Source: Clostridium sp. TW13
Lineage (GTDB): Bacteria; Bacillota; Clostridia; Clostridiales; Clostridiaceae
NCBI RefSeq assembly: GCF_024345225.1
Contig: NZ_BROD01000001.1
Location: forward strand, 2,800,362 to 2,864,361
DNA length: 64,000 nucleotides
Direction of reading: 5' to 3'
Part shown: piece after piece, positions 26,474 through 61,385 of the stretch
Layout of the letters: each line of letters begins with the position of its first letter
Numbering within the stretch: position 1 is the first letter of the stretch
Notes under the pieces: generated by a model
Seen by the model: only the letters and a program-made list of their open reading frames with translations
Told to the model about the DNA's origin: nothing
Databases searched by the model: none
Translations under genes and position numbers: made by a program

Positions 26474-26489
26474 AAAATCCTCCTTAGGC

Positions 26490-27101
26490 TTATACCCCTG
26501 CAAAATTTTTAATAACTACTTGATTTCTTAACTTCATTGTCTTTGGAGTAGTAAGCAGTGGTACTTCAACCTTTACTTCATATTCAACTATTAACTTTAC
26601 TTCTCCTTTTGCACCTAATGTTATACTGCTTTTACTAAAATCAAATCCACTTGTAATTCCTAATGACTTTTTATAGTCACTACCTTTAGCTGCTTTTAAA
26701 TCATTATCAAGAAGTTTTTCAGATATCTCTGGTATAATTTTATTTGACACTTCTTGCACTCCACTAGCCAGCATACTCTTTATAAAATTCTCTACCGTAG
26801 CTTTTAGTTGTCCACCTAACCCATTTGCAGATCCATGTGCTGCTGCATCTGTAAATATTTCTTGTACTTTAGTTATGGTTTTACTCAGATCTTGATCTTT
26901 ATCTACATACTCATTTTCCTTAGTAACATCAGCAATATAAGTATATCCGTTAATAAACTTGGCAGTGTTATAAACATTTGTTTGAATTGTATCATATATA
27001 TATACAATCTTTAGAAATTGTGCCATAAACAAAACCGCAAATACAAATATTGGGACTACCAAAGCAGCCTCTATTGTTATTACACCCTTACTCTTTTTCA
27101 C
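26490..27101 (-). CDS. TadE-like pseudopilin, 2
   Basis: A 203-residue protein that starts with a type IVb-pilin-like leader, KKSKGVITIEAALVVPIFVFAVL: a basic tip, Gly before the cleavage point, and a hydrophobic helix with Glu at position +5 after Gly. The long outer part (residues about 40-203) is predicted alpha/beta with a central helix and KLLDNDL-type stretches. It should be a minor Tad pilin. GTG start behind AGGAGGAAATAAA, identical in sequence to the leaders of the two upstream lipoproteins because the 875-bp duplication ends just in front of this gene. Confidence 0.82.
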   Translation of the reverse strand: MKKSKGVITIEAALVVPIFVFAVLFMAQFLKIVYIYDTIQTNVYNTAKFINGYTYIADVTKENEYVDKDQDLSKTITKVQEIFTDAAAHGSANGLGGQLKATVENFIKSMLASGVQEVSNKIIPEISEKLLDNDLKAAKGSDYKKSLGITSGFDFSKSSITLGAKGEVKLIVEYEVKVEVPLLTTPKTMKLRNQVVIKNFAGV

Positions 27102-28862: not shown

Positions 28863-31412
28863 CTAGTTATATGCTTTCTTAAAGGTAAACTCATTAAACT
28901 TATTGATCTTTCCCTTTCCCGAGAAAGTCTGAGTATTAAATAATATATTTACCTTTGAGTTATTTACATCTACTTTTAATGAAGTATCATAATCTTGGAA
29001 TTTTCCTTTTAAATCTTCATTGGCTGTTATTAAATCTTGACACCTATCTATTAACTTTGATGAATCTGTTATTAAAAGCTTAAATCTTATATAATCTGTA
29101 TAGTAAAGCTTAATTCTCCCCAAAGCTTGTTTAGCTTCATAATCTTGATCATTATATACTGATTTTTCTTCAGTCTTTTCTATATGCTTTTGCATACTAC
29201 TTATATTGGATTGCAAAGTTGATCCTTGATGTGAATTCTTACAATCATCTTCATTCAAACCAAATTTCGTACACCATTGTTCAAAATCAGTCTTTATTAA
29301 AGGCACCTTATACCCATTATATAAATCAATAAGGTCACACCTAGTTTCCAAAAGCACCCATACAGTCATTATCATATACTTTATTATTGTTTTTGGTAGA
29401 TGAGTTAGCGCAGCTATAGCAAGTGAAACTACATCTATAAATTTTCTTAACGACTCTTGATAAGTCATCAAACTTATAAAATTCAATGCGCCTCTTATTA
29501 TAAACAGATCATCTTCCATAGTTGTTTTAGATTTTTGGTCATCATATTTTCCTGATATTATGGCTTCTATCTCATACTTAAGTTTATTTTTTGTGCACTT
29601 TGTTAGTTCTGGAATTCTTTTTCCCTTAGGTTGTACCATTTCTCTAAAATATGTCATTATATATTCTATTGAATATATCTTATCAGCTAGTTGTCCTCCT
29701 GCATCTATAAATGAGCCTACTTGATCCACACCATTTATACTAGGCATCTTAAAAAGTTGACTTGAAAAGCTTCCAGACTCTCCTTCTTCTGAAGATGTAT
29801 TTGGTAGCCCTGACTTGTCAATAGTTGCATGAGAATCATATTTATCCAATATCTCAGATAAACTTGGTTTACTATTTATTTTTTGATATAAGTCTTTAAT
29901 CTTCTGAAAAAAGGTTTCATATTCCTCATTAGACTGACATTTTAATTTAGAGGTTTCCACAACTGATATTCCATCAACTGTGTCCATCTGCTTCATAGGT
30001 GTCAAAACATATTCACCTATTTTACTGTTCTTTCTTAATTCATCACTATTACACACCTTCATAATCAAGGTATCTATTAACACATTAGCTGGTGAGTCTA
30101 AATCTATTACACTATCCATGGTTCTAAATACATCATCAGTAGTGTGCTTTTCTGCCCATTCATTTGCTTTTCTCGATGCCTTATTCATCTCTGAATCGTA
30201 TTTATCAAGAGTGCTTATTATTGAAGTAATTTTAGTTATCACATTCTGCAATTCAGATTGTATTGTTGTGGAATCATCTAATATCTTCATATACTCCTTA
30301 TAGGTGCTGTCAGCCATATCGCGCACTTGACATTGATCTCTAACAGCAAGAGCATTATATTTTTGCATCAACTGAATATATACAGTTTTATGTGATACTA
30401 TATCATCTACTCCTTTTTTGTCTTTTTCAATTTCTTTTTTTAAATCAGTTAATTCTTGTTTGAAAGAACTCATTGGCTCCAAATATCCTAAGTTTCCAAA
30501 ACGTTGATTTAATAAAGACAATAAGGTATTCAAATTGTTAGCACGCTTTAATTTCTTTTTATTTTCATGTTTGTCATCGTCTTTATCGCTATGCTTCTCT
30601 GCTTCTTTTGTGATATATTTTTCATACATTTCCAATATCATTTTTGTGTATAAATAAGAATATACCTTTTCCATATACACTGTGTTGTTATATGACTTAA
30701 CATTATTTATACAGCCAAATATAGGACCATTGTTCTTATATATTGCTAACAAAGCTGTCTGAGGCATTAATGGTATATACCCCATGCTCTTAGAATTATT
30801 ATTCTTGTTCAAAACACTATATTTATTGTTTTTTGCTAACTCCACCACAGCTGTTATAGCATTTTCCTGTGCCTTTCTCATTTCTGCAATAGATTCATCT
30901 AAATCTTTCTTTTCCTTACTTTTCTCTAGTGCCTGTATATCATCTGTATCTTTTGCTACATCCTTATAATTTAAAATTTGTTTCAACTGATTATATACTG
31001 ATAATGCTAAATTCTCGGTACCCTGATACTTCATAGAATAAATCATTTGCCGAAGCATTATCTTATCATCCACAAAGGGGCTATCCCCAGCGGTTACATT
31101 TATGTTATCTGGAGGTAAATCAATCTTAAATAAATTATTAGTAGTCTCTCCATATTGAACATTCTCTTGCATAATCTTTTTTACAGTTTGCGTTATATCT
31201 GAACCATTCTTAAAAGTCATCATACCATAATCTTTAAACAAATCTTTTTGATAACTAGACAACCCTGATGTAATTCCTGCATCTGTTGCAACTATTAACT
31301 GGTTCTTGGTACTATTGATTCTTGTCACATCGATTAGTGTGCAAAAGAAAGCTATTAGCATACCGTAAATAAGAGCTAAAAATACAGTTATAACCCCCTT
31401 TCCATTCTTCAA
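28863..31412 (-). CDS. DUF5702 / TadG-like pilus-associated protein
   Basis: An 849-residue protein. The N-terminus (KNGKGVITVFLALIYGMLIAFFCTLIDVTRI) is a pilin-like leader and membrane helix typical of TadF/TadG proteins. Downstream the sequence matches the DUF5702 type (DAGITSGLSSYQKDLFKDYGMM), then a long helical and charged region to the C-terminus with several coiled-coil-like stretches and a possible second hydrophobic segment near residues 670-695. Start is TTG at 31412-31410 behind GGAGGGC; it overlaps the TadE stop by TTGA. It probably forms a surface component of the Tad machine. The end of this gene was copied into the 875-bp repeats. Confidence 0.78.
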   Translation of the reverse strand: MKNGKGVITVFLALIYGMLIAFFCTLIDVTRINSTKNQLIVATDAGITSGLSSYQKDLFKDYGMMTFKNGSDITQTVKKIMQENVQYGETTNNLFKIDLPPDNINVTAGDSPFVDDKIMLRQMIYSMKYQGTENLALSVYNQLKQILNYKDVAKDTDDIQALEKSKEKKDLDESIAEMRKAQENAITAVVELAKNNKYSVLNKNNNSKSMGYIPLMPQTALLAIYKNNGPIFGCINNVKSYNNTVYMEKVYSYLYTKMILEMYEKYITKEAEKHSDKDDDKHENKKKLKRANNLNTLLSLLNQRFGNLGYLEPMSSFKQELTDLKKEIEKDKKGVDDIVSHKTVYIQLMQKYNALAVRDQCQVRDMADSTYKEYMKILDDSTTIQSELQNVITKITSIISTLDKYDSEMNKASRKANEWAEKHTTDDVFRTMDSVIDLDSPANVLIDTLIMKVCNSDELRKNSKIGEYVLTPMKQMDTVDGISVVETSKLKCQSNEEYETFFQKIKDLYQKINSKPSLSEILDKYDSHATIDKSGLPNTSSEEGESGSFSSQLFKMPSINGVDQVGSFIDAGGQLADKIYSIEYIMTYFREMVQPKGKRIPELTKCTKNKLKYEIEAIISGKYDDQKSKTTMEDDLFIIRGALNFISLMTYQESLRKFIDVVSLAIAALTHLPKTIIKYMIMTVWVLLETRCDLIDLYNGYKVPLIKTDFEQWCTKFGLNEDDCKNSHQGSTLQSNISSMQKHIEKTEEKSVYNDQDYEAKQALGRIKLYYTDYIRFKLLITDSSKLIDRCQDLITANEDLKGKFQDYDTSLKVDVNNSKVNILFNTQTFSGKGKINKFNEFTFKKAYN

Positions 31413-32017
31413 TTTGTTTGCCCTCCTTTACTTAATGAACTTTTCACCTTATCCAAAATACCCTTAGCCTTATCCTTGGCTCTTCCTAATAATTTTGCTG
31501 TATAAGCGATTGTCCTCATATTAGCCTCATTATTAGAAAGATTTACAACCTTAGTATTGGAATCATGAACCATGCCATCTTTAGTCATTCCAAAAAATTT
31601 AAACAAACCCGATAAGGGCAACTTATACGTACAGTTTGTTTTTATAGTCATTTGTTCTCCTACAACATATGGAAATACTGAAACATCAGAACTAAAATCC
31701 ACCTTCATTGGTATACCTGAATCAACTTTATCTTTTAATTTTGTTTTTACTATTGCAACCTTTTTATCTGTAGAAAATGCTGTTGCAAAAGCTTCTGCAA
31801 TAATGCTATTTTTACCACTCTTAATCGTATCAAAGTCACTTCCTCGGCTGTACCACTGAGCTGTAACCTGTGCCACCACATGATCTACACTTAGTGCCAC
31901 ATACACTCTGCTATATATAAACAAAAATGTGAAGATCATTATGAAAACAACGTACATAACAAGCGGCATTATTAATGCCGCCTCAATTGTTAATACCCCC
32001 TTATTTTTGTGTAGCAT
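31409..32017 (-). CDS. TadE-like pseudopilin, 1
   Basis: A 202-residue protein beginning with MLHKNKGVLTIEAALIMPLVMYVVFI, the TadE leader (Gly, then T-I-E-A-A-L and a hydrophobic helix). The rest is a small outer domain with a basic C-terminus. Its ATG touches the stop codon of the Flp pilin gene, and its stop overlaps the next start, so the three are tightly coupled. It should assemble with Flp and the TadG-like protein in the Tad pilus. Confidence 0.85.
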   Translation of the reverse strand: MLHKNKGVLTIEAALIMPLVMYVVFIMIFTFLFIYSRVYVALSVDHVVAQVTAQWYSRGSDFDTIKSGKNSIIAEAFATAFSTDKKVAIVKTKLKDKVDSGIPMKVDFSSDVSVFPYVVGEQMTIKTNCTYKLPLSGLFKFFGMTKDGMVHDSNTKVVNLSNNEANMRTIAYTAKLLGRAKDKAKGILDKVKSSLSKGGQTN

Positions 32018-32191
32018 TTAGCCTATTACACTGTTAGCAGAATTATTTATTTTTGTGAAAATTTTAGTAAGAAGCGCTCCTATTTGTTGCTTAAACACTA
32101 ATACTAATCCAATTAAAATTACAAGAATCAATACAATTTCAATAGTTGCTACCCCTTCTTCTTCCTTGAAAAACCTTTTTGTAATCTCCAT
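32018..32191 (-). CDS. flp: Flp-family type IVb pilin
   Basis: A 57-residue protein, too short for many ORF cut-offs, found by translating the gap between the TadC and TadE genes. It reads MEITKRFFKEEEGVATIEIV followed by a leucine/isoleucine/valine-rich helix and the tail KINNSANSVIG. The EEEG / VATIE pattern is the Flp prepilin cleavage site with Glu at +5. GGAGGAGTTAGA precedes the ATG. It would be the major subunit of the pilus, cleaved by one of the two A24 peptidases. Confidence 0.85.
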   Translation of the reverse strand: MEITKRFFKEEEGVATIEIVLILVILIGLVLVFKQQIGALLTKIFTKINNSANSVIG

Positions 32192-32224: not shown

Positions 32225-33097
32225 TTATAATGCAAATAATTGCATCATTGCAGGTACTAATACAACTAAGAAAACAGCTGCTAGCATCAACATCATTGGA
32301 AATAAAAGCTTTGTTGATGCCTCTTCTCCCTTCTGTTTAGCCATTTGTTTTCTTTCCTCCCAACATTCATCTGATAATTGCTGCAGCATAAAAACCATAC
32401 TGTCTGATCCTCTGCTTATATTTTGAAGCACAATTGATGTAAATTTGCTTACCTCTGGAATCTTACATCTTTTGGATAAATCATTTAAGCATTTACTCTT
32501 AGGTATATTTGAACTCATATCATTATATGTTTTTGTCAATTCCTTTATTAAAATTGTAGGTTCACCCTTAATATCTTTTAATATAGTCCACCAAGCTCTT
32601 TCTAGGGTTAAACCTGCATTTACCAATAAAACTAATTTAGTTAAAAATTCAGGGAAATCATATCTAATTGCTTTACTTCTCTTCTTAAAATTCTCTTCTT
32701 CAATGGAATCAGTTAAAATATATGCTCCTACAGCAACTACAGGTCCTGCAATAAGGAAAATAACATTAAATTCACCACTAGCAAGCATTAAGAAATAAAC
32801 CGCATTTATAGCAATAATGGCTAATGTTAATTTGTAAGCTACATGCCATCTGAATTTTTCTTGTACCTCTAGTCCATACATTGAAAACATTTTTTCATAT
32901 ATCGCTCTACTTCTATTCTTGAATTTTTCTAATCCAAACCTATCTATTATTAAAAGTCCAATTATTCTAACTTCCCTTAACGGGTATTCTTTTTTATTCA
33001 TATTGCTTACTTCAGTTGCATAGCTTGTATTCCTTTTAGCTAATAAATATAACACTGCTGTAATTGCAATTGTAATTAACAAAGGTATTCCTATCAT
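32225..33097 (-). CDS. tadC: TadC-like inner-membrane platform protein
   Basis: A 290-residue protein of the type II secretion F family. It has an N-terminal membrane helix (IGIPLLITIAITAVLYLLAK) and a cytoplasmic helical domain with the T2SF motif (FPEFLTKLVLLVNAGLTLERAW and RGSDSMVFMLQQLSDECW). Two terminal membrane segments (LLFPMMLMLAAVFLVVLVPAMMQ) complete it. It should form the platform with TadB under the TadA ATPase. It starts behind GAGGTG. Confidence 0.87.
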   Translation of the reverse strand: MIGIPLLITIAITAVLYLLAKRNTSYATEVSNMNKKEYPLREVRIIGLLIIDRFGLEKFKNRSRAIYEKMFSMYGLEVQEKFRWHVAYKLTLAIIAINAVYFLMLASGEFNVIFLIAGPVVAVGAYILTDSIEEENFKKRSKAIRYDFPEFLTKLVLLVNAGLTLERAWWTILKDIKGEPTILIKELTKTYNDMSSNIPKSKCLNDLSKRCKIPEVSKFTSIVLQNISRGSDSMVFMLQQLSDECWEERKQMAKQKGEEASTKLLFPMMLMLAAVFLVVLVPAMMQLFAL

Positions 33098-33256: not shown

Positions 33257-34201
33257 TCAAACCTCTATATTGGTTATCTTTCTTCCCCATAATGTAGATA
33301 TTAATATAATTACTAAAGCCCCTGTGGAAATAAGTCTGCCTTGTATAGTGTAAAGTGGTTCCAAAAAATCTGGGGAAGATATTCTTATAAACAAAACTAT
33401 AGCAAATGGTATTATAGTTAAGATATTAGACTCAAATTTCTTACCTGAAATCAAGGTCTCTATATCTTGCTTAATGCTTATTTTCTCACCAATAATATTA
33501 GATGTAATTTCTGTTACACTCTTTAAATTACCACCTGTAGATTTGCAAGCACCAAATACACTTGAAAAGGTTACTACATCCTCCAAACCACTTCTTGTTG
33601 CAAAATCATCTAAAGCTTCTTCAATGGTTTGATTTATCTTTATCCTTCTATTTATATAAGTGAGTTCCTGTAGTATGTAGTCTTCCTTTCCAAAGTCAAA
33701 AATAGTTTTCAAATCATCATATGCATCAACAAAGGCATTTTCTACTGATTTTCCTGCACTAAGAGAGGATGATATTATATACAAAGCCTCTTTGAACTGT
33801 AGCAACAACTTTTGCTTTCTTTTGGAAATAATATTTTTTTTCTTAATTTTGTAGTATCCTATACCTATTAATGAAACGATACCTGCCCAAATAACGCTGT
33901 TATAAAAAATATATGAACATATAAAAACTACTCCCATTGCTATAAGTGACCACTTTACCTTCTCTATTAATGTCATTTCATAGCAATTGTAATTTATAAG
34001 TCCCTCTTTATTTACTGCTTGTTCAGCGTCCTTCTTAATTTTTGTGATAGTTTTTCTTTTAACAGCTACTGTGTTCTCACCTACTGCTCCATCATCTATT
34101 TCCTCATAATCTTTTCTGCTATTTACTATAATCAAAACAATTGCCACTATAGTTGCTGCTACTATCACACCCATGACTACCATAATTAACATAAAATTCA
34201 T
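33257..34201 (-). CDS. tadB: TadB-like inner-membrane platform protein
   Basis: A type II secretion F family protein of about 314 residues. It has an N-terminal membrane helix, a further hydrophobic pair near residues 90-120, the T2SF cytoplasmic domain (FKEALYIISSSLSAGKSVENAF and LEDVVTFSSVFGACKSTGGNLK) and C-terminal membrane segments. I take the ATG at 34201-34199, behind GAGGGGG at a rather long spacing of 12 bases; an in-frame ATG at 34222 would overlap TadA by 14 bases and lacks a binding site. The two F-type proteins are the usual TadB/TadC pair. The 159 bases to TadC contain no gene. Confidence 0.85.
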   Translation of the reverse strand: MNFMLIMVVMGVIVAATIVAIVLIIVNSRKDYEEIDDGAVGENTVAVKRKTITKIKKDAEQAVNKEGLINYNCYEMTLIEKVKWSLIAMGVVFICSYIFYNSVIWAGIVSLIGIGYYKIKKKNIISKRKQKLLLQFKEALYIISSSLSAGKSVENAFVDAYDDLKTIFDFGKEDYILQELTYINRRIKINQTIEEALDDFATRSGLEDVVTFSSVFGACKSTGGNLKSVTEITSNIIGEKISIKQDIETLISGKKFESNILTIIPFAIVLFIRISSPDFLEPLYTIQGRLISTGALVIILISTLWGRKITNIEV

Positions 34202-34208
34202 CTTTAAT

Positions 34209-35453
34209 CTATTCCCCCTCATAAATTCCAGAAACTTTCAACTTAGCAACACTATGAAACTTATTATCTGTTCTTACCAACCTTGAGATTACTTTCTTAT
34301 CTGTGGACCCTTCCTCTTCAACTAACTCATATATCTTGTTTAGAATAATCTCCCCATCTTTTATTCCAAGGACTTCACTTATATCTAATACTTTTCTAGA
34401 TCTATCTCTAAGTCTGCCTAAATGGATTATTATATCTACAGCTGAAGAAATTTGCTTTCTTATAGCTGCAATAGGGAAATCCACTCCAGTAAGCACCATA
34501 GTTTCTAGTCTTGATAACATATCTATAGCTGAATTAGCATGTCCAGTTGATAAAGACCCATCATGCCCTGTATTCATAGCTTGCAACATATCTAAAGCTT
34601 CTGCCCCTCTGACCTCACCAACAATTATTCTATCTGGTCTCATTCTAAGAGAACTTTTTATTAAATCCCTTATGCTAATTTGCCCTTTACCCTCTGTGTT
34701 TTTATTTCTTGTTTCAAGTCTAACAATATTATCAATATGCTTTATTTGAAGTTCTGCTGAATCTTCTATGGTTATAATTCTTTCATCTTTAGGAATATAA
34801 TCAGACAATGCATTTAAAAATGTAGTTTTTCCTGAACCTGTTCCCCCACTAATAAATATATTGTATTTAGCTAATACTAGCTTTCTAATAAAGCTTGCTG
34901 CCTCTTGAGATATACTTCCCATTTCTATCATTTTTTCAATAGTAAACGGCTTGTCTGGAAACTTTCTTATAGTTACAATTGGCCCATTAAGAGCTATAGG
35001 TGGTAAAACAACATTTACTCTTGAACCATCTTTTAATCTAGCATCTACTATAGGTTCACCTTCGTTAACCACTCTATTTACTGTAGAAACAATCTTTTGA
35101 ATTATATTTTCTAAAGCTTCAACGCTGTCAAAGCCTCTATTTAACTTTTCAATAACTCCATTCTTCTCAATAAAAATATCATTACAACCATTTATCATTA
35201 TTTCTGAAATTGTCTTATCTTCTATAAGTGGCTGAAGTATATCTAATCTCTTAACTGAGTTAAATGCTTTGTCTAACAATTCCTTTTTATTGCCAACACT
35301 GATTCTTATATTCTTTTCTTTTATAATTTCATTTAGTTTTGTTTTAATTACTTCCTTTATTTCTTCATCACTTAATTCCTTCTGTATATAAACCTGGCTT
35401 TGTAACAGTTCTTTAATTTCATCTACAATTTCTTGTTCTAAAACACTATCCAT
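34209..35453 (-). CDS. tadA: TadA/CpaF secretion ATPase
   Basis: A 414-residue hexameric ATPase that powers pilus assembly at the inner membrane. It has the Walker A GGTGSGKT at residues 203-210, the Asp box region IITIEDSAELQI, the Walker B-like RMRPDRIIVGEVRG and the His box LSTGHANS. The N-terminal ~75 residues form the helical domain typical of CpaF. The length is normal. It starts behind GGGGGAATTTTAAT. It lies between the FHA/TadZ genes and TadB in one operon. Confidence 0.93.
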   Translation of the reverse strand: MDSVLEQEIVDEIKELLQSQVYIQKELSDEEIKEVIKTKLNEIIKEKNIRISVGNKKELLDKAFNSVKRLDILQPLIEDKTISEIMINGCNDIFIEKNGVIEKLNRGFDSVEALENIIQKIVSTVNRVVNEGEPIVDARLKDGSRVNVVLPPIALNGPIVTIRKFPDKPFTIEKMIEMGSISQEAASFIRKLVLAKYNIFISGGTGSGKTTFLNALSDYIPKDERIITIEDSAELQIKHIDNIVRLETRNKNTEGKGQISIRDLIKSSLRMRPDRIIVGEVRGAEALDMLQAMNTGHDGSLSTGHANSAIDMLSRLETMVLTGVDFPIAAIRKQISSAVDIIIHLGRLRDRSRKVLDISEVLGIKDGEIILNKIYELVEEEGSTDKKVISRLVRTDNKFHSVAKLKVSGIYEGE

Positions 35454-35466
35454 ATTAAAATTCCCC

Positions 35467-36537
35467 CTACAAGCCTAATTCTTGTACCATAGTTGCAACT
35501 GCTCTCTTAATAACAGTTGAGCAAATCGCTTCATATCCTGAACATGTTCTTAGCGTTTTATCTTCGTCAATCATAAGGTTTATAGGTACTACAGAATTTT
35601 CAATAACTCTTTCCGTTCTATCATACATATTGCAAACAAAATAATACTTTTTAGCATCACTTATACAACTCATGAATAAGTTTAATTTACTTACAGACGT
35701 CATACTATTAGCCACAGGTGCTATAACCAAGTTTGAAGAATTTAAAATAATTTCGTAAATTGAATTATATTTGCTGCTAGTATCAAAAATTATATATTCA
35801 TACTGCCCTGACTCTAAAAGTTTCTCAAGCATCCACTTAATATCATTCTCATTCATATCCTCAATATCTAAAATATTCTCTGTATTCTCTAGATAATAAA
35901 CGTTAGTATTTTTATCTCTATTCACCATATTAATCAGATTTTGAGTAAACTTAGTGGATTGATCCTTAACCTCAAAAATAAAATCTGATAATGTAGTTTT
36001 TTTATCACTTTGAAAATACATGTTAGTACTTTGTACATCCTCTAAATTCAAATATAGAACATCTCTTCCCTTAGCACTTAGTGAAGCACTTAAAGCTGTT
36101 GCTAATGTACTCTTGCCTGTTCCCCCTATTGGCGAATAAACAGTAATAATCTTTGTAGAAGTATTGTTATTTGAATATACCGCTGTTACCTTCTCTGGAT
36201 TTATATCAAAATAAGATTTTAAGATGATATCATACATCCTATCCACATCTTTATACTTATGAATCCTTTGGCCTCTATCCTCTGCTAGATTAAAATCACC
36301 TTCTACTATAGTAAGAACACAAGAAATTCCTATTCCTTCTAATCTCTCATCGTACATTTCCTTATTTATCAATAGAACATCCTTATTCTTAATCGTATTT
36401 ACTTCTTTTAGAAATAATTCTTTATTCGAAAAGCATGTAATATCTATCTTTCCCCTATAAGTATTTAAGAGGTATTTATTTAAATAGTCTAAATACTTTT
36501 TATCATAATCAACTATAATTAAACCTAACTTTCCCAT
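35467..36537 (-). CDS. tadZ: TadZ/CpaE-like pilus-localisation ATPase
   Basis: A 356-residue protein. The N-terminal ~115 residues resemble a degenerate response-regulator receiver domain (LGLIIVDYDKKYLDYLNKYL) without an obvious phosphoacceptor pocket. The rest is a MinD/ParA-like P-loop ATPase with the deviant Walker A PIGGTGKST (GGTGKST at 138-144), DVLYLNLEDVQSTNM and FDTSSKYN. TadZ proteins position the Tad apparatus. It starts behind GTAGGAGAG. Its place behind the FHA gene suggests that phosphorylation signals may reach pilus placement. Confidence 0.88.
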   Translation of the reverse strand: MGKLGLIIVDYDKKYLDYLNKYLLNTYRGKIDITCFSNKELFLKEVNTIKNKDVLLINKEMYDERLEGIGISCVLTIVEGDFNLAEDRGQRIHKYKDVDRMYDIILKSYFDINPEKVTAVYSNNNTSTKIITVYSPIGGTGKSTLATALSASLSAKGRDVLYLNLEDVQSTNMYFQSDKKTTLSDFIFEVKDQSTKFTQNLINMVNRDKNTNVYYLENTENILDIEDMNENDIKWMLEKLLESGQYEYIIFDTSSKYNSIYEIILNSSNLVIAPVANSMTSVSKLNLFMSCISDAKKYYFVCNMYDRTERVIENSVVPINLMIDEDKTLRTCSGYEAICSTVIKRAVATMVQELGL

Positions 36538-36546: not shown

Positions 36547-37995
36547 CTACTCCATCTTAAAAATCAGTATTAAATCTGACAATGTGATTATATCTCCATC
36601 CTTAAGCTTAACGCGTTCTCCAGTTCCTAATTTATGTTGATTAAGGATGGTTCCATTTTTTGAATTAAGATCTTCTAAATAATAATCATCACCTACAATA
36701 ACTATTTGAGCATGCCTTCTTCCTATACTGTTGCTCTTTATCCATTGATCAAATTCTGCCTGTCTTCCAATTATGAACGGACTAGCTTCTATATATTTTT
36801 TTATACCTTCACCCTTTAATTCTAAATATGGTTCAGCTTTTAGGAATGAAGTATCAGAATCTAGAAGAGTTGTACTTTCATCCTTGACCTGTGACGTATT
36901 ATAAGGTTCATAAGGTTTATTCTCTGCAACCTTACCCTTAGGCTCATTTAACTTAACCTGTTGTTTGTATTCTGCAGTCACACTTTTTTTAACTTTAACT
37001 TGTACCTTCTTTTTCTTAGTTTTATCTAATATAACTCTTAAAACCAATACGTCTAATGCCGCTAGAAGCATTGCTCCTCCAGCTATTTGAGTAACTTCCA
37101 TTCCATCAACGATGAATAGACTTAATATAATTCCAATAATTATTGGTTGTACCATTACTGCTAATATCAATCTTATTGTAGAGAATTTTTCTTTTTCTAC
37201 AGTTTCATAAATTACCTGCTGCATTTCTTTAGCTTTTGCCTGTGGCTGATTTGCAGGCTCTATTGATTTGTTTTTGCTTACATCTATCTTTGGCGTTTGT
37301 TTAGATACGATACTAGGTCTAGATTCTACTGTTCTGCTTATATTTTTCTTCTCCTGTAATGGACTATTCTCAGATATTGTTGATTTACTTTCATTTCGCC
37401 TTATAGCTTTATTATTTCTATTAACTGATAACTTCTCAACAAATTCACTAATGCTGCATCTATTATCTCTAATATTGTTTTTTAGATTTACAAAATAATC
37501 TGCATCTCCATTTTTAATTTTGGCTTCTAGTAATATAGTCCTAACTACATCCCAAATTAAGTTCATATAACTTTCATTAATATTTTCACTATACCTCTCC
37601 ATTAGAGGCACATTTATTAACTTTATTTCCATTATATTAAGATCAATATAAACACAATCTTTTTCTAAGATAAAGTTATCACCTTCCAACAACAGCTCTT
37701 TACAATGCAAAATTATATCGGCAATATTACTAAATATCTTAGCTATACTTTCTTTATCTATTTCGGTATTCTTAATATAATCCTCTAAACTTTCAAGGCC
37801 TGTTACATAATACTTTAAGTTTATATCTTTATTAAAAATATACTTTTGTACCTCTATTAACCCTCTTTCCTTGTGATTATTTATCATCTCAATTTGAAAA
37901 TCTATGAGCTCTTTATCTTGAAATGATATTTGTAAAATTTTATTCTCTGCATCCTCTATTTTTTTCTTTGAAATTAAACTACATGCTATAGACAC
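36547..37995 (-). CDS. FHA domain protein with DUF6382-type N-terminal domain
   Basis: A 482-residue membrane protein. Residues 1 to about 190 resemble DUF6382, an EssB-like pseudokinase fold. A linker, two hydrophobic segments near 275-320 and a basic region follow. The C-terminal FHA domain (about 405-480) has the phosphothreonine-binding pattern GR at 410-411, SIGRRH at 422-427 and NG at 447-448. Just before it is STTLLDSDTSFL (374-385), which resembles a kinase target that the FHA domain could bind. GTG start behind AGGGGGAGAG. It should read Thr phosphorylation made by the kinase at 39778. Confidence 0.85.
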   Translation of the reverse strand: MSIACSLISKKKIEDAENKILQISFQDKELIDFQIEMINNHKERGLIEVQKYIFNKDINLKYYVTGLESLEDYIKNTEIDKESIAKIFSNIADIILHCKELLLEGDNFILEKDCVYIDLNIMEIKLINVPLMERYSENINESYMNLIWDVVRTILLEAKIKNGDADYFVNLKNNIRDNRCSISEFVEKLSVNRNNKAIRRNESKSTISENSPLQEKKNISRTVESRPSIVSKQTPKIDVSKNKSIEPANQPQAKAKEMQQVIYETVEKEKFSTIRLILAVMVQPIIIGIILSLFIVDGMEVTQIAGGAMLLAALDVLVLRVILDKTKKKKVQVKVKKSVTAEYKQQVKLNEPKGKVAENKPYEPYNTSQVKDESTTLLDSDTSFLKAEPYLELKGEGIKKYIEASPFIIGRQAEFDQWIKSNSIGRRHAQIVIVGDDYYLEDLNSKNGTILNQHKLGTGERVKLKDGDIITLSDLILIFKME

Positions 37996-38026: not shown

Positions 38027-38308
38027 CTAAATTACTGACTTAGAATGTACAACTATAATGTTTTTATCTATACAAAAATTTTTATCTATGTGGCTGCAAC
38101 TCGAAGCATCTAAATCAGTTACCTCAAGTTTTTCAGTATCCTCACTTTCACTAAAAGGAACATATACCGTATAATTATTCCTTTCCATAGGGCTTTTTTT
38201 ATAGAATTTTTTTTGAGCTTTTGATTTTAATAAAGTGCTTAATAATACTATTGCCAGTAGCACCATTAAAATTATTCCTAGCATATAATCTTTTAATTCT
38301 TTTGGCAT
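38027..38308 (-). CDS. small membrane protein of the kinase/Tad operon
   Basis: A 93-residue protein with one N-terminal membrane helix (about residues 9-29, GIILMVLLAIVLLSTLL), a short basic stretch, and a hydrophilic tail with two cysteines near residues 70 and 78. No family recognised. It starts behind GAGGTGAAAG and lies between the PP2C phosphatase and FHA genes, so it is probably part of the signalling module. Confidence 0.65.
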   Translation of the reverse strand: MPKELKDYMLGIILMVLLAIVLLSTLLKSKAQKKFYKKSPMERNNYTVYVPFSESEDTEKLEVTDLDASSCSHIDKNFCIDKNIIVVHSKSVI

Positions 38309-38341: not shown

Positions 38342-39109
38342 TCAAATAATTTTTACTAACAAAACTGATATGTTATCCCTTTCTCCTCTATCTTTAACTA
38401 GCTCAACCATATCAACACAAGCTTTATACATATTATCTTCATCCACTAAATCCCTTGAAGATAGTTTATCTACTATCTCTTTCTCATCTAATTCATGATA
38501 AAATCCATCTGTACAAAGCATATATATCTGATTTTTCTCTGCCTTACCTTCATACACAACTATTTTCACATCTGACACCACGCCAATGCATTGCAGTAAT
38601 ATATTTCTTTTAGGATAAGTCTTTGCTTGTTCCTTTGTTATATTGCCTAAATCAACTTCTCTTTGAACCAAGCTTTGATCCTTTGTAATCTGATACAAAT
38701 TATCTTCAATCTTATACGCTCTACTATCACCAACATGAAACACCAAATACTTATTTTCAATAATTAAAAGAATTGTAAGGGTAGTACCAAGTTTTAAATC
38801 ATTATCTTCACCATACCTTTTTATCTTTAAATTTAATTTTTTTATTGTGTCAATAATGCTAGTTTTAATTTCTTCTTCCCATTCATTACTTAAGATAATA
38901 GTTGGCAGGATTTTCTCAAACCATCTGGACATTGTCATAATAGCTGTTGCACTAGACATTTCTCCCTTTGACAATCCTCCCATTCCATCACACATAACAA
39001 AAAAGCCCACATTTCCTCTTGAACTATTAGCAGTCTTTATTAAAAGAGCATCTTGATTTACAGACTTCTGATTTCCTATATCTGTATGATATACCGTTAA
39101 AAATTCCAT
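38342..39109 (-). CDS. PP2C-family Ser/Thr protein phosphatase
   Basis: A 255-residue phosphatase with the PPM/PP2C metal-binding motifs: the early HTDIGNQKSVNQDAL, FVMCDGMGGLSKGE (Asp-Gly-Met-Gly-Gly), FHVGDSRAY and, at the end, DRGERDNISVLLVKI. It should remove phosphate from threonine in targets of the kinase at 39778. I choose ATG 39109-39107 (MEFLTVYH), preceded by GAGGG; the frame continues to 39175 without a binding site. It pairs with the kinase gene as in other bacterial STPK/PP2C loci. Confidence 0.9.
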   Translation of the reverse strand: MEFLTVYHTDIGNQKSVNQDALLIKTANSSRGNVGFFVMCDGMGGLSKGEMSSATAIMTMSRWFEKILPTIILSNEWEEEIKTSIIDTIKKLNLKIKRYGEDNDLKLGTTLTILLIIENKYLVFHVGDSRAYKIEDNLYQITKDQSLVQREVDLGNITKEQAKTYPKRNILLQCIGVVSDVKIVVYEGKAEKNQIYMLCTDGFYHELDEKEIVDKLSSRDLVDEDNMYKACVDMVELVKDRGERDNISVLLVKII

Positions 39110-39288
39110 TCTCATCCCTCGTTTACACATTCTAATAAATCTAAATTCTTTTCCAAATAAAGTAATATAGTACATTTTTATTATATTACTTATTTTCCCA
39201 TATTTATATAGTTTTGTCTTTGTTTTTAAGTAGCATTTTACACTACTCCAGCTTTTAAATATTAAAGCTATAATTAAAGTCAGATATT

Positions 39289-39765
39289 TTATTTGTTATT
39301 ATCATCATCCAGCAAAACAGTTTCTTCTTTGTGAATCTTAGCATTTTCCTTTTGAATAAACTGAGCTTCTTCTTCTAAGAATTGTGTATCTTCTTGAAGA
39401 AATTCAGTTTCCTCTTCCTGAATAAATTGAGTCTCTTCTTCTAAAAATGTAGTTTCATCTTCATAAAAAGCTTGTGATTTATCCCTTAAGCCTAAACCTT
39501 CTACATCTTTATTCAATATAGATTGACTTATTCTACTGCTTGTTCCTCCTATCCTCATACTTTTACTATTAGATAAATTCTGACTATTTGACATTTGCTT
39601 ATTATTACTTATTCCTTTCTTTCTAAAATCCCAAAAAGAACTGGATTTCATTATTTCCCCTATTTCCTCTTTGTTATATATATAAATTGCACTTATCAAA
39701 CTTATTAACATCCCTAGGCAACCCACAGTTATTAATATAATATTACCCAAATTACTTTTTTGCAT
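39289..39765 (-). CDS. membrane protein with acidic Thr-containing heptad repeats
   Basis: A 158-residue protein I do not recognise. One membrane helix (about residues 8-30) is followed by a Ser/Asn/Gln-rich segment. Then come six to seven imperfect heptads between residues 102 and 152 of the form E-(E/D)-T-x-F-(L/I)-(E/Q), with Thr at 105, 106, 112, 120, 127 and 149. The pattern resembles STTLLDSDTSFL in the FHA protein three genes downstream. It lies 12 bases behind the kinase gene. I infer a substrate or scaffold whose phosphothreonines are bound by the FHA domain; nothing proves it. Confidence 0.6.
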   Translation of the reverse strand: MQKSNLGNIILITVGCLGMLISLISAIYIYNKEEIGEIMKSSSFWDFRKKGISNNKQMSNSQNLSNSKSMRIGGTSSRISQSILNKDVEGLGLRDKSQAFYEDETTFLEEETQFIQEEETEFLQEDTQFLEEEAQFIQKENAKIHKEETVLLDDDNNK

Positions 39766-39777
39766 ATAACCACCCCT

Positions 39778-41715
39778 TTATCTTATAAGTCCTTGATTCT
39801 TATAGTCATCATATTTCCTTTTTAACTGTATAAAATCAGAATCATTTTTATTAGGATTTTTTTGCAAAGCTTTTTGGTAATAATCTGCCACTTTTTTATA
39901 ATTGTCTTCATTAGGTTGCGAAGCTGTTAAATTATTTCCTTCTTGTATTTCAACATACAATAGACCCAGCCCAACATCTGCTCTATAATCATTAAATTTT
40001 GTTTCTTCCTTGTTAAATATGTCCTCACTATCTTTGAATCTTCCGGAATTCTTATAAATAGTTCCAAGCTTATAGTAGGTGTTTGTAATACTACCACCAA
40101 CCTTAATAGCACTTTCATAATACGTAGCTGACTTATTCATATTTTCCTTATACTTAACTGGATCTGTTATTACTGAAGTAGCTTTTCCATAATACGCATT
40201 GCCTAGCTTCTCTAACAACCTTGAATTATTTTTATCCTTCGTAAGCTCGTAAGCCTTATTAAGAACTGAAACTGTCTTGTCTATACTGTCATTTTTAAAA
40301 ATATCAGGATTGTTAGAATATATGTCTGCAATAATACTATAGCCATTTGCTTTCAATTCAGGATCTGAAACAGTTTCAACATAATTTTCTAATGTGCTAA
40401 CAGCTTGTGTTATTACATCATTATTTCTAACCTTACCTCCTAAAGCTTCGGCAATAGGTTTATAGTATTTAAATAACTGCGCTTCTTTTAAATCTAAGTT
40501 TTTATCAGGTTTTTTTACCTTTGAAAAATATACATTTGCATTGCAATAATCAGCATTTTCAAAATAGACCTCTCCAAAGTAATATTGTGCTCTTTCATTT
40601 TTAGCTACATAAGCTTGTACTGACAATAAAAAATCTATACATCCGTCATAATCATTTTTATTATCAAACAATTTTATTGCCTCTTTATACGCCTTTGCTT
40701 CTGGATCATCAGGATTCATTTGTATAGCTTTTAAATATTTTTCTTTAGCAGCTTCTTTATTATTACTGGATTCATTAGCATCTTGAATTGCTGCAATATA
40801 ATTTTCTTGATTAACATTGTTCGAACCCTTTACTCCAATCGCAGTCAAAGAAGCTGAAAGAATAAACGCTAAAATTGCAGTTGCTAATTTCATCAATTTT
40901 TTTCTTGCTTCTTGTTTATAGGCTGAATTCAACCTATGTATATTTTCTAAATCAAAAATTAAGTCTTCAACAGATTGATATCTTAAATTTGGGTCTTGCT
41001 GAGTACACTTAGCAATAATAACTTCAAACCCTTCTGAAAGATTTGGATTTACCTGCCTTGCTGGCTTTATTTCAAAAGGAGGATCATTGGGACTTTTTCC
41101 TGTAGCCAAATGGTACAATGTTACACCTAAACTATAGATATCTGTTCGTGCATCTGTTTGATGTCTTCCATATTGCTCTGGTGCAGCATATCCCTTGGTT
41201 CCTATATAAGCAGTATCTTGAGAAACATCTTCTTTATATTCTCTTGCGATTCCAAAGTCTATCAACTTTATCTTATCTTGAGGTGTTAACATAAGATTTG
41301 CTGGTTTCATGTCCCTATAGATTATTGGATTAGGTTTTTGTGAATGTAAATATGAAAGCACTTCACAAATCTGCTTCGCCCAACTTAACACTGTAACTTC
41401 ATCAGCAACGCCTATCTCCATTAGCTTTTTGTCAAGAGAAATTCCCTCAATGAAGTCTAAAACAACATAGATATAATCATCTTTCTCAACGATATCAACA
41501 ATTCTAGGTAATGCTGCATGATCAAGTCTTTTTAACAAATTAGTCTCAGCCATAAGGTCTACCGTAGAATTATTTTCATCTTTTCTTACCTGTTTGATAG
41601 CCCACAGCTTTTGGATTCTAATATCTTTTGCAAGATATACGGTACTCATTCCCCCCTTGCCCAAGATATCTATAATTTGATACTTATCTTCAAATAAGCT
41701 TCCAACTAAATTCAA
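39778..41715 (-). CDS. PknB-like Ser/Thr protein kinase with TPR domain
   Basis: A 645-residue kinase, first gene of the Tad operon. The kinase domain (about residues 12-265) has the glycine loop GKGGMSTVYLAKD, Lys41, the catalytic loop YRDMKPANLM with Asp135, DFG at 153-155 and GTKGYAAPEQYG. One membrane helix lies near residues 275-297. The extracellular C-terminal half, about 340 residues, consists of TPR-like helical repeats rather than the PASTA domains of typical PknB, which suggests protein-binding input. The start is TTG at 41715-41713, preceded by GAAGGGGGGGA. Confidence 0.92.
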   Translation of the reverse strand: MNLVGSLFEDKYQIIDILGKGGMSTVYLAKDIRIQKLWAIKQVRKDENNSTVDLMAETNLLKRLDHAALPRIVDIVEKDDYIYVVLDFIEGISLDKKLMEIGVADEVTVLSWAKQICEVLSYLHSQKPNPIIYRDMKPANLMLTPQDKIKLIDFGIAREYKEDVSQDTAYIGTKGYAAPEQYGRHQTDARTDIYSLGVTLYHLATGKSPNDPPFEIKPARQVNPNLSEGFEVIIAKCTQQDPNLRYQSVEDLIFDLENIHRLNSAYKQEARKKLMKLATAILAFILSASLTAIGVKGSNNVNQENYIAAIQDANESSNNKEAAKEKYLKAIQMNPDDPEAKAYKEAIKLFDNKNDYDGCIDFLLSVQAYVAKNERAQYYFGEVYFENADYCNANVYFSKVKKPDKNLDLKEAQLFKYYKPIAEALGGKVRNNDVITQAVSTLENYVETVSDPELKANGYSIIADIYSNNPDIFKNDSIDKTVSVLNKAYELTKDKNNSRLLEKLGNAYYGKATSVITDPVKYKENMNKSATYYESAIKVGGSITNTYYKLGTIYKNSGRFKDSEDIFNKEETKFNDYRADVGLGLLYVEIQEGNNLTASQPNEDNYKKVADYYQKALQKNPNKNDSDFIQLKRKYDDYKNQGLIR

Positions 41716-42010: not shown

Positions 42011-45000
42011 ATGAATAGGAAAAAACTTCAAGCTTTAATTCTTGCTCTTATTGTAACTTCATCAACTATTACTGCACCCAATTACAAAGCTTATGCAGAA
42101 TCAGCTGACCCTACACTTATAGCACTGTCACAAATTATTGATAATAATTCTATCACTAACCAAGCTTCATCAATTCCATCAATGACAGACGACCCTTCAC
42201 TTACAATTGATGAAAATATTACAAGCAATGACTTTGAATCAAACTTTTATGTGGTTGATGATAAAAAATCTTCAAATGTACTTCAGATAAATAGTATATC
42301 CGACAAAATATCTAACAAAAATGTACTTGCATTTTTCAATTTATCAAAATTAGCATTAACTGCTGGAGATTATATTGATTATGAAGTGACAACTACAGAT
42401 ACTTCCAACGTTGATACCACTAAAAAATATACCTATTCAAACATAGAAGCAAAACAATACTACTTACCAGGTATCTCAACAACAAACATTAATAAAATAA
42501 CCGTTGTATACAATCTAAAACATAAGGATGGCTCAGTAGCATATAAATCTAAACAGGTAATCAAAGCTTCTACAGATACAGTTGCTCCAGCGCTTAAAAT
42601 TACTAATGTAAACTATTCCCTAAGCTCTAGTAACTCAGTCGCAACCTTCAAGATAAAAGTAACAGATGACTCAGTTATGTTATCAAAGCCAGCCTTGTAT
42701 ATAGGAGGGACAGCTACTCCAGTTGAAAATGCAGATATAAATTATGATAAGACCAGCAATGAATATACTGTAACAATTAAAAATCTTAGCCAAGCTTCAT
42801 GGAAATATGACTTTTTTGCTTCAGATGATTCCTTTAATGTATCAAATGTAACCTTTGACAGCACAATTCTACCAACCTTTGATATATATAAGGGCAGTGT
42901 ACTTACTGATAAAGATTTCAACTTAAGAGGCACCTTGCCATCTGGCACTTCTTCAGCTTATATAAATACGCATGCTATATCCAATAATTCTTTTGTCACA
43001 AAACTTGCAAAAAATGAGACTGATTTAAGCTGCAATTATACTTATAACAATTACAAAGTTAATTACTCAGCAAAAGTTTTACCGGATAACCAAGCACCAA
43101 CCTTCAGTAATATAAAGGGTGACTCTTCTATAAGTTTGACTTCAGATAATAAAATGTACGTTAAATCAACTGATAATTTCACATTGGATGGCAAAATAGC
43201 AGATAACTATATTTCTTCAGGTATGAAAATAGATAGTATTGATTATCTATTAAATGGTTATGACGCAAGATCTGTAGATTTAGCAGATACAACAAAATTC
43301 ACATATAGTGATGGTACTTTTCATGCTTTGCTTGACTTGTCCAATACTTCTGATAACGATGACGTAACAGTAATAATTAAAGCCTCAGATAAATTTAATA
43401 ACCAATCAACATTAATCTTTGATGTAATTGTAGATAAAACAATAGATACTCCTACCATAAATTTAAAACCCTCTTACGGAGTATATTCAGATAAGACTGG
43501 ATGCAACTTTAATGGTTCTGTTACTCCTTCAATAAGTACTTCTGAGCCAAATTTGGACAAGCAAAATTCTAAGATTATAATAAAAAAATATATAAACTCT
43601 AGTGATAATAATCCAACAACCTATCTAGATACTAATTTTAATGATAGTGTACACTTAGATTCTAGTGTCAATAACACATATGCACTAAAAAATTCAATTT
43701 CTGAGGATGGTAAGTATGAAGTAATTACCCACCTTGTAGATCTTGCAGGAAATCAAATTTCCCCTGATTCTATAAGAACTTTTTATATTGATAAAACTGC
43801 TCCTATTATTAAATTTACAGATGCAGTACTTCAAAATAATGATACTGTATATAAGCAATCTATAACTCCAACAGTTACCATTACAGATTTATTCTTAACT
43901 AAATCTGATATCATAAGCTCAAAATATGTGGATATAAAAATCGATGGTAATACACAAACCTTATCTTCAGATGATATTACTCCTACCCTAAATAAAGACG
44001 GATCAACTACCTATAGCATAAATTTAACTTCATTACCTGAAGGGCATCATACATTATCCGTTAAAACTACTGATCATTCAAATAATAGTTCTACTACTAA
44101 TACAAAAGATATCTATGTTGATACAACTGCTCCAACGGTAAGCCAAATAATGGGCAAGGATGATTTAACATTAATTAACAATAATTACTATAGGACTCCA
44201 TTCAATCCTTATGTAACTGTTTCAGAAACTAATATAGATAAAACACGCTCATTCTTCACTGTTACTAAAGATGGTTCAACTACAATATATCCCTTTAATT
44301 CTCCTCAGGTAAGTGAAGTTTATATTGGTGACGGTACAAAAAATTATATTTTGAATAATATTGTTGATAGTGATGCTTCCTATACCATAACTGAACACGT
44401 TCAAGATGAAGCTGGAAATATACAAAATACTCCTGATGAAATTTCAACATTTTATATAGATAGTATCAGTAAACCTACTATTAGTAATGTCCCCTCTAGC
44501 CCTACCACCAGTGATATTACGCCTATAATTACAGTATCTGATCACTTCTTGAATAAAGATAATTGGAACGCTGAAGTTGACGGCAAGAAATATATCTATG
44601 CAGAGCTAAATGGAAATGCCTACGCTCTTACCTTTAAAGAAAAAAATGGAGACACTATTACTTTTGAAGGTGCTAAAATTTCAGCTAATACTGCTAAAGG
44701 CGTTAAAGACAATCTCAAGGTTTTCGTTTTAGATAAAGCTGCAATGGCTTTAAATGAAGAACCTAAAACTACCCAAATTAACTTTATAAAAGATAACGAA
44801 GCACCAACTATTTCTATATCAAAGGGTTTTCCACTATCAAACAATAAGCCTAATTTTTATAATACTGATGTATCTCCTGAATTTACAATCACTGATAACT
44901 ATGGTTTCTCTGGTACGCCAAAGGTAACCATTATAAACAGAGATACTTTCGATTTAATTCCTTTCAGCCTATCAAAAAATGATGATGGTAATTATACTCT

Positions 45001-48000
45001 AAATGGAATCAACATCAATGATGATGGAAATTATAGAATAGCAATTTCTGCATCTGATACTGCTAATAATCCTGCGTTAATTAATGGTTCAAATGGGTAT
45101 GTATATGACTTTACTGTAGATAAAACAAAACCAAATGTTGATATTGCTTTTGATTCTTATAGTAAATCTCACGTGCATGAGGGTATTTACTACAATAACC
45201 ATGATTCAGTTACTCCTAAAGTTACTATTTCAGATACAAACTTTATCAATAGTGGTACTAAGGTACTTTTAAACAATGAAGATATAACTTCAAAAATAGA
45301 TCCTCAATCTAATACCTTTGACTTAAGCTATTCTGCTGAAGGAAAATATACAATTGAAGTTATAAATACAGATGAGGCTGGTAACTCAAATAGTGCCAAG
45401 AGTACCTTTGTACTTGATAGGACTAAGCCAGTTCTAAAATTCAATTTTAAAGATGGTGACTATATAAGCAACAAAAACTTCCGCCCAATAATATCAACTG
45501 AAAATCCTGAAGATACTATTACTAACGTAACTATTAATTGGAATCCTTTTATTGATCCTAGCAACTTACCTATACTAAAAGACAATAACTACACTATATC
45601 AGCAACTGCTACCGACTTTGCTGGTAATGTTAGTGACGATAGTCCCAAAAACTTCACAATTGATACAACCTCCCCATCAGTAAGCAAAATTAAAGATGCA
45701 AATGGTGCATTATTAATAGATAACAGCTACTATAGAAATCCATTTGATCCTTATGTAACTGTTTCTGAAACTAATATAGACAAAACTAATTCTTACTTCA
45801 TTGTTACTAAAGATGGGATAACTACAAGGTATAATTTTGATGCAGACCAAGTAAGTGAAACTTACAGTATTACCGGAGGTAAGTGCTATACTTTAAAAAA
45901 TGTTGTTGACAGTGATGCTGCTTATACAATCACTGTACATGTTGAAGACAAAGCTGGAAATATTCAAAATACTCCTGACCAAACTTCAACATTTTATATA
46001 GATAGCTACAATGCTCCATCTATTTACAACATTCCATCTGACAATACAAATACTGATATAACTCCTACCATTACAATAGTTGATCACTTCTTAAATAAGG
46101 ATAATTGGAACCAAGACATTAATGGTACAAAGTATATCCGTGCTGAATTAAATGGAAAAGCCTATGAACTTACCTTCAAAGAAAAAATTGGAGATACTAT
46201 TATATTGGAAGGCGCTAAAATTTCAGCCAACACTGCTAAAGGCATCAACGATAATCTTAAAGTATTTGTTTTAGATAAAGCTGCAATAGCTCTAAATGAA
46301 AAACCTGCAACTAATGAAGTTAACTTCGTAAAAGATAGTGAGAATCCTATTATTTCTATATCAAAGCCTTTTCCAAATTCAAATAATAAGCTTAATTTCT
46401 ACAATAGTGATGTATCACCTGAATTTACAATTACTGATAACTACGGTTTCTCTCATAAGCCAAACGTAAGCATAATAAACAAAAATACTGGTGAAAAAGT
46501 TCCTTTTAATTTATTAAAAAATCCAGATGGAAATTACACTGTAACTGGAATCAATATTCATGAGGATGGAAACTACAAAATAACAATTGACGCAGCTGAT
46601 ACTGCTGGTAATATTGCTTTATTTAACGGAACACAGGGTTATGTATATAATTTCACTGTAGATCAAACAACTCCAAGTGTCAGCATTAATTTTGATGATT
46701 ATAGTAAAGCTCATATGCATGATGGCATTTACTACAACAACCATGATTCAGTCAGCCCTAAAATTGTTATTTCAGATACTAACTTTATTGATAGTGGAAC
46801 TAAAGTGTATTTAAACAGCGAAGATATAACTTCAAAAATAGATCCTGAATCTAATACCTTTAACTTAACTTACTATGCTGAAGGAAAATATACTATCGCA
46901 GTTGTTAACACTGATGAAGCTGGTAATACAAGTAGTACTAATAGCACCTTCATAATTGATAGAACTAAACCTATAGTAAGTAAGATAAAAACTGAAAATG
47001 ATAATTTATTAATTGATAATGGGTACTATAGAAATCCTTTTAATCCTTACATTACTGTTACAGAAGCTAATATAGATAAAGAAAATTCTTACTTCAATGT
47101 TACAAAAGATGGCAAAACTACAAAATATGACTTCAATGCTGATCAGGTTAGCGAAGTAATCAATAGTGATGGTTCAAAAAACTATATTTTAAAAAATGTT
47201 GTTGATAATGATGCTGCTTATACAATCACTGCTCACGTTCAGGATAAAGCTGAAAATATGCAAAGTACTCCTGACCAGACTTCAACATTTTGTATAGATA
47301 GCTCCACCATACCAACTATTAGTGAAGTACCTTCTACACCTACAAGCAATGATATTACACCTGTAATTACAGTTGTTGATCACTTTTTGAATAAAGATAA
47401 TTGGAATAATGATGTCAATGGCAAAAAGTATATATATGCCGAACTAGATGGAAAATCCTATGCTCTTACCTTCAAAGAAAAAGTTGGAGATACCATAACT
47501 TTTGAAGGTGCCAAAATTTCAACAAACACTGCTAAAAATATAAAAGATAATCTTAAGATATTTGTTCTAGATAAAGGTGCCATGGCTTTAAATGAAGCTC
47601 CTAAAACTGCTGAAATTAACTTTATAAAAGATAGTACAGCTCCTACTATCTCTATATCAAAAGATTTTCCAAACTCAATTAATAAACCTAATTTTTATAA
47701 TAGTGATGTAACACCAGAGTTTACAATCGCTGATAACTACGCTTTCTCTGATGCACCAAAAGTAAATATTATAAATAAAGATACTGGTGAAGCAGTTCCT
47801 TTTAATCTATTAAAAAATGCTGATGGTAACTACACATTAAAGGGAATCAATATTCATAAAGATGGAAATTATAAAATAGCAATTTCAGCCTCTGATACTG
47901 CTGGAAACCTTGCCTTATTCAACGATTTGCAGGGTTACAAGTATGAGTTTACTGTAGACCAAACAAAGCCAGATATAAAAATTAATCTTGATGATTATAG

Positions 48001-61373: not shown

Positions 61374-61385
61374 ACTTTTTTCTCC

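Follow-up and report, generated by a model that had tools for sequence, protein, structure and literature searches.

What do a Ser/Thr kinase, a PP2C phosphatase and an FHA protein do directly ahead of the genes of a Tad pilus? The question is raised by a 64,000-nt stretch of the genome of Clostridium sp. TW13 (contig NZ_BROD01000001.1, positions 2,800,362 to 2,864,361; hereafter the window), and it matters because, to our knowledge, the switching-on of Gram-positive Tad pili is poorly understood. A preliminary description had read the signalling genes and the Tad genes as one leftward run. We found all of them on the minus strand in the claimed order: TPR kinase, protein X, PP2C, protein Y, FHA, TadZ, TadA, TadB, TadC, Flp and TadE. 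Joining a threonine-phosphorylation kit to a Tad operon is real and recurs in relatives, and we estimate the probability that the kit forms a phosphothreonine switch coupled to the pilus at roughly 60%. The observations behind this estimate are the gene set, the motif arrays, the conservation of one threonine of the FHA protein, the predicted folds, the co-occurrence with one Tad clade and the absence of a type VII secretion system (T7SS) from the genome.

Association of the FHA gene with Tad loci

Tad loci were sampled through TadA alone, independently of FHA. Because a first split, made with a TadA hidden Markov model trained on FHA-bearing loci, was partly circular, we compared the loci on a TadA tree. 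The deepest branch, in the tree as drawn, had full support (100% in the Shimodaira-Hasegawa approximate likelihood ratio test, SH-aLRT) and divided the loci into the clade of the window, where 35 of 39 carried a DUF6382-FHA gene, and a second clade, where none of 37 did (loci with enough flanking sequence, the window and locus L050 left out of the count of 39). Four state changes along the TadA tree accounted for all determined rows. The association with Tad is not due to chance, and the FHA reader marks out one large Tad clade, whose members include Lachnospiraceae and Paenibacillus. We also surveyed DUF6382 neighbourhoods, 32 from genomes within the family and 60 more from the class: over half of the former lay in T7SS loci (EssC, WXG100, YukD), and those in the rest of the class lay mostly in Tad loci.

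A kinase or PP2C was present within the flank in a minority of FHA-bearing Tad loci. In L136 and L138, a run on one strand comprised the Tad genes, prepilin peptidase, FHA, PP2C, kinase, X, (a transmembrane (TM) protein) and a giant surface protein; the same order was found in L139, where the contig ends, and in L044/L256. In other Tad loci the operon carried FHA-PP2C-kinase-X at its far end; the FHA gene stood alone in many. The composition of the set recurred across four families of Clostridia; the exact gene order was seen only in the window. The order kinase-X-PP2C-X-FHA-TadZ-TadA, for which the preliminary description expected conservation, was seen at no other locus: as a conserved unit, kinase-X-PP2C-Y-FHA-TadZ-TadA was absent from approximately 190 neighbourhoods and from those further strong kinase matches in the family for which the surroundings were examined. 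L275 and L276 (genomes G030 and G015) hold an FHA-bearing membrane protein, PP2C and a related kinase, with neither Tad genes nor full-length EssC nearby; this arrangement is another variant of the kit.

A conserved threonine in the FHA protein

The FHA gene (36547..37995, minus strand; DUF6382, 9e-19; FHA, 4.5e-17) encodes a TsjJ/TsfJ-like protein: its N-terminal part has a kinase-like fold, and two helices that probably span the membrane and a disordered linker separate this part from the FHA domain. It lies outside the span (38342-41715) that had been assigned to the whole module, which covers kinase to PP2C only. In an alignment of 38 proteins, the threonine at position 375 (T375; codon 36871..36873, minus strand, reckoned from the gene start at 37995) was present in 36, and Leu or Ile stood at position +3 in all 38. 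T375 with its +3 residue was the main conserved feature of the linker, the rest of whose 240 residues was variable. The region that holds it had a predicted local distance difference test score (pLDDT) under 50. Across Tad loci, FHA linkers contained 37 motifs of the docking type described below, against 7.7 expected.

Among solved structures, the FHA fold came nearest to DgcB (6hc1, Z 16.7), whose domain had been determined together with the phosphorylated N-terminal peptide of the same protein, and was close to GarA/OdhI. The FHA domain of the window retains GR and NGT, and reads GRRH where the classical motif is SRxH, Gly425 replacing Ser. The same Gly was found in eight of the nine kinase-linked T7SS FHA proteins that were matched by the pattern; as a predictor of a neighbouring kinase, the Ser/Gly position gave no clear pattern. 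A test for the TagH/Fha family of the type VI secretion system (T6SS) fell below threshold (VI_FHA, 39.7 bits; cut-off, 120.25).

Residues 4-194, corresponding to DUF6382, aligned to Hanks kinases (VIA Z 13.5 to PknS over 186 residues; root-mean-square deviation, 4.0; 8% identity). Such a fold is expected if DUF6382 resembles the EssB pseudokinase, as the earlier label "EssB-like" would have it; EssB itself was not among the matches listed in this search, which used the whole FHA protein and was dominated by the FHA domain, so that its absence there carries no weight.

Threonine motif arrays in protein X

Protein X (39289..39765, minus strand; TsjK-like) has an N-terminal TM helix and an acidic tail (residues 33-158). 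The acidic character had been recognized previously; the docking-type threonine motifs, here and in the FHA linker, had been overlooked. The tail contains five [DE]T-x-hydrophobic-hydrophobic motifs (ETTFL, ETQFI, ETEFL, DTQFL and ETVLL), with 0.06 expected. In the tails of 21 kinase-linked X proteins, 45 motifs were observed and 2.8 were expected from shuffled sequences, the highest of 5000 shuffles giving 10. Leu or Ile occupied position +3 in 48 of 60 acidic-Thr sites, a bias that fits the interest of FHA domains in this position, since they are known to read the +3 residue. The X protein of L072 (5537-6214) carries approximately 16 near-perfect tandem units of eight residues (DEEATEYL/ATEYLDEE), which lie outside the motif count, and that of L064 carries about eight tandem units; the L072 repeats suggest fast change in array length. 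We propose that the tail of X may act as a phosphothreonine docking array. A Pfam scan of X and Y returned sub-threshold matches only.

The kinase and the divergent giant surface protein

The kinase (39778..41715, minus strand; PF00069, 1.5e-50; TsjD-like by structure model and tree) has one TM helix at approximately 274-296. Its AlphaFold2 model (pLDDT 87.5) shows a kinase domain, a long presumed membrane helix and an all-helical repeat from approximately 315 to 645. The description of this repeat as TPR agrees with the model, the individual TPRs scoring under the Pfam cut-offs. Because basic residues precede the TM helix, the kinase domain is placed inside and the helical domain outside, so that the TPR-like domain is predicted to be extracytoplasmic. 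As had been claimed, the kinase is not of the PASTA PknB/PrkC type: it has no PASTA domain and scored 207.6 bits against NCBIfam NF033483 (cut-off, 450).

In the kinase tree, the kinase of the window grouped with those of T7SSj-type loci L042/L046 (support 96/92), and identity to the L046 kinase was 56% over the full length and 73% in the kinase domain. We assigned relatives' loci to the T7SSj type by gene content. Transcribed divergently from the kinase is a gene for a 2968-aa surface protein (42011..50917, plus strand; Big_13, 6.8e-61; TsjI/TseI-like), which has a signal peptide, a TM helix at its C-terminus and Ig-like repeats. It is homologous, N-terminal region included, to the giant beside the L046 kinase (322 bits). 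A divergent giant adjoins the kinase in six loci of the kinase subclade and in L274; the kinase-X-giant cassette accompanies a T7SS in L042, L046, L055, L057 and L063 and a Tad operon in the window, and stands by itself in L274. On sequence grounds, the module extends past the kinase, with the divergent giant as part of a conserved cassette and a candidate extracellular sensor arm.

Type VII secretion components in a genome without type VII secretion

The accessory components D, F, I, J and K of T7SSj/T7SSe were catalogued by Garrett, Higginson & Palmer 2024 (PMC11217815). These systems share with the window a TPR-type membrane kinase, a PPM phosphatase, a giant Ig-like protein with a C-terminal TM helix, a DUF6382-FHA protein and a protein with a single TM helix whose short cytoplasmic tail is described as "unstructured". 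The kinase, X and giant of the window correspond to TsjD, TsjK and TsjI; TsjJ and TsjF (PPM) are also represented, the PP2C coming from another clade. Both the membership of the giant and the match of kinase, X and giant to T7SSj in a genome that lacks a T7SS had escaped the preliminary description. Unlike T7SSj, the kit of the window adjoins no EssC, WXG100 or YukD and is linked instead to a Tad operon. A search of the whole genome (rated 100% complete) for WXG100 gave no match, and an EssC query gave, besides an FHA match, only a pair of FtsK/SpoIIIE-type frames of shorter length (775 and 427 aa), with no EssC. By these searches, the genome holds no T7SS elsewhere for the kit to serve; T7SS accessory parts thus occur here without the secretion system.

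Contact between the two machines has precedents: T7SSg/h adjoin Tad genes and T7SSf has a TadZ-like component (PMC11217815). Neither the Thr motif arrays nor a set of this kind within Tad operons is described in the main text of that paper. In L045 (7851-18392), and also in L048 and L051, we observed T7SSf-like loci that hold TadZ, YukD, EssC, WXG100 and a DUF6382-TM protein lacking FHA; a gene for a TadA-type ATPase (T2SSE, 3.8e-22) follows without change of strand. Two weak T2SSF-like membrane proteins are added in L045, so that this type VII locus includes a motor and a platform of the Tad type.

Two ancestries within the signalling genes

The PP2C gene (38342..39175, minus strand; PF13672, 3.7e-10) probably starts internally, at approximately 39109, and its product scored under the cut-off of the Stp1-type profile (187.9 bits). 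In the PP2C tree, it grouped with the phosphatases of L054/L044/L136/L138/L139 (support 93/100), which belong to the FHA-PP2C-kinase-X arrangement, whose kinases form a different clade. The C-terminus of protein Y (38027..38308, minus strand; small TM protein, no Pfam family), IIVVHSKSVI, is similar, when compared by eye, to the tail ends of X proteins in that arrangement (for example, ITVIHTDMVI in L054). TadZ grouped with the Tad TadZ of L050 (SH-aLRT 93); TadA was 67% identical to that of G145, and both TadZ and TadA grouped with those of G145. Since the PP2C clade differs from that which accompanies the T7SSj-type kinase, the module is a mosaic, and because of the trees and the motifs the X-PP2C junction looks like a seam between two ancestries. 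Spacing inside the signalling part is 9-35 nt, except at this junction (113 nt, or approximately 180 nt with the internal PP2C start). Terminator prediction across 31-42.2 kb found none on the operon strand; the only two terminator-like sites were both on the opposite strand.

The Tad operon and neighbouring genes

The leftward run extends from 41715 to approximately 25314: after the signalling genes come the Tad genes, then genes for a DUF5702 protein and two lipoproteins, and finally a second TadE gene with two prepilin peptidase genes. TadZ, TadA, TadB, TadC, Flp, TadE and prepilin peptidase were all found in this single run, with weak matches for TadB and TadE. On the minus strand, it encodes TadZ, an atypical receiver with a ParA-type ATPase (35467..36537; AAA_31, 4.2e-14; TadZ-like_ARD, 1.4e-5), the TadA/CpaF motor ATPase (34209..35453; PF00437, 6.4e-61) and the platform proteins TadB (33257..34222; T2SSF slightly under cut-off, assigned by position and by homologues at other Tad loci) and TadC (32225..33097; T2SSF, 4.8e-10). 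These are followed on the same strand by the Flp pilin (32018..32191; Flp1_like, 3.1e-20), a TadE-like pseudopilin (31409..32017; TadE weak, 0.015, assigned by position), the DUF5702 pilus-operon protein (28863..31412; PF18960, 6.1e-29) and a second TadE-like protein (26490..27101; TadE, 1e-4, slightly under cut-off).

The two lipoprotein genes (27257-27976 and 28132-28851) form a tandem pair of near-alike copies; comparable repeated lipoprotein genes lie in L138 between a large Tad protein and a TadE-like gene. The operon closes with two adjoining A24 prepilin peptidases, both on the minus strand (25838..26503; PF01478, 6.9e-14; and 25314..25829; PF01478, 2.4e-14). Near the Tad region is an exopolysaccharide cluster, in which a CpsD-like tyrosine kinase is encoded twice (58322-59092 and 60720-62069, read from translations), alongside a chain-length gene of the Wzz-like type and genes for a CpsB-like phosphatase and a sugar transferase.

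Discussion

We suggest the following course for the switch. The kinase, with its catalytic domain in the cytoplasm, would most likely meet the 2968-aa giant through its outside TPR domain and so sense contact or the envelope. A signal on the giant or on the TPR domain would activate the kinase, which would phosphorylate the threonines of the X tail (five copies of [DE]T-x-hydrophobic-L/I) and T375 of the FHA linker. Docked on X, several copies of the FHA protein could be drawn to the membrane beside the kinase; docked on its own linker, the protein could close either intramolecularly or onto an adjacent molecule, as do GarA/OdhI. The kinase-like DUF6382 domain may then relay the state to TadZ/TadA, encoded next to the FHA gene, and PP2C would remove the phosphorylation, resetting the switch. 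What we infer here is that the giant senses, that these sites are phosphorylated, that the FHA domain docks on them and that the pilus is affected.

Parts of this scheme are found in other systems. We know of no T6SS counterpart of the X array or of DUF6382. The T6SS threonine phosphorylation pathway (PpkA/PppA/Fha) otherwise resembles the window in its membrane kinase, PP2C-type phosphatase and FHA reader and controls a surface machine post-translationally (PMC3953482), but it serves another machine in another phylum. GarA/OdhI (PknB, PknG) share with the FHA protein of the window a Thr in a flexible segment ahead of the FHA domain; they differ as cytosolic metabolic regulators without DUF6382 and TM helices. 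PknG carries a TPR domain (PMC8546545), which is cytoplasmic, whereas that of the window kinase is predicted to be outside. FHA domains are tied to Tad machines in the Tad-like Kil system of Myxococcus, for which contact-induced assembly was suggested, and in class III CpaF (PMC8460266, PMC12019362); these are Gram-negative, the FHA domain is fused to the ATPase or lies in other proteins, and a kinase-X-PP2C cassette of this type is not described. The Tad operons of clostridia, Lachnospiraceae and Paenibacillus share the TadZ-TadA-TadB-TadC-Flp core and, in most of the TadA clade, DUF6382-FHA, but their FHA gene is usually downstream of tadA-C/flp, whereas in the window it stands with the signalling genes ahead of tadZ.

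Several observations weigh against a switch coupled to the pilus. The Gly at the FHA phosphate site is the chief molecular doubt over the proposed binding. Most FHA-bearing Tad loci have no kinase or PP2C within the flank examined, so that the kinase may act remotely or the FHA protein may be independent of phosphorylation. The X-PP2C gap, together with the differing ancestry of the two halves, allows a separate transcript. In addition, the other genome of the same genus that was examined has neither this TadA nor this kinase. The gap and the ancestry would also fit a history in which kinase, X and giant are a remnant, displaced from a T7SSj locus since lost, and lie before the Tad operon by chance, only the genes from FHA-TadZ-TadA onward belonging together; the nesting of the kinase with those of L042/L046, the lone cassette of L274 and the position of the widest gap of the run just before a PP2C of a different clade speak for such a history. 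We nevertheless consider it unlikely, since four other lineages hold a similar set, with its own kinase clade, in or beside the Tad locus, the reading frames and X motifs of the window are intact, the genome keeps no T7SS for the cassette to serve and no terminator was predicted between the parts.

The Gly substitution, the kinase-like fold of DUF6382 and the many Tad loci with an FHA gene and no nearby kinase would be accounted for if the FHA protein were a phosphorylation-independent Tad scaffold, comparable to the EssB pseudokinase with the EssC FHA domains in T7SSb, and the kinase and PP2C had other targets. A scaffold of this kind leaves unexplained why a single Thr with Leu or Ile at +3 dominates the conservation of an otherwise variable linker, and why X arrays of the same motif adjoin the kinases; we regard it as rather improbable. 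That the kinase governs the giant surface protein or envelope homeostasis, its proximity to the pilus genes reflecting joint surface expression only, seems very improbable: the divergent giant is kept with the kinase even where no export machine is nearby (L274), but the FHA gene is directly beside tadZ in the window and is bound to the Tad clade overall.

If the phosphothreonine switch is coupled to the pilus, it extends a known principle. Threonine-phosphorylation kits are known for T6SS and have been proposed for T7SS, and Gram-negative Tad machines are known to include FHA domains. In the literature searched, there was no such kit in Gram-positive Tad operons, no X array, linker Thr or clade-wide FHA gene; phosphothreonine control of Gram-positive Tad pili came up only as T7SS work and Gram-negative FHA mentions, and DUF6382 was mentioned in a single paper, on T7SS. 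The X-array threonines and T375 of the FHA protein are named residues that make the idea directly testable. Since relatives carry the same kit next to a secretion system of an unrelated type, it has the look of a portable switch serving surface machines. More tentatively, and with odds that we put somewhat short of even, it may be a portable contact-sensing phospho-relay of monoderms that plugs into Tad pili and type VII secretion via its FHA/TadZ side, the number of Thr repeats setting how many readers are recruited. A docking-type code is common to Tad and T7SS loci, and the shared signalling kit offers a reason for the repeated meeting of these loci in genomes.

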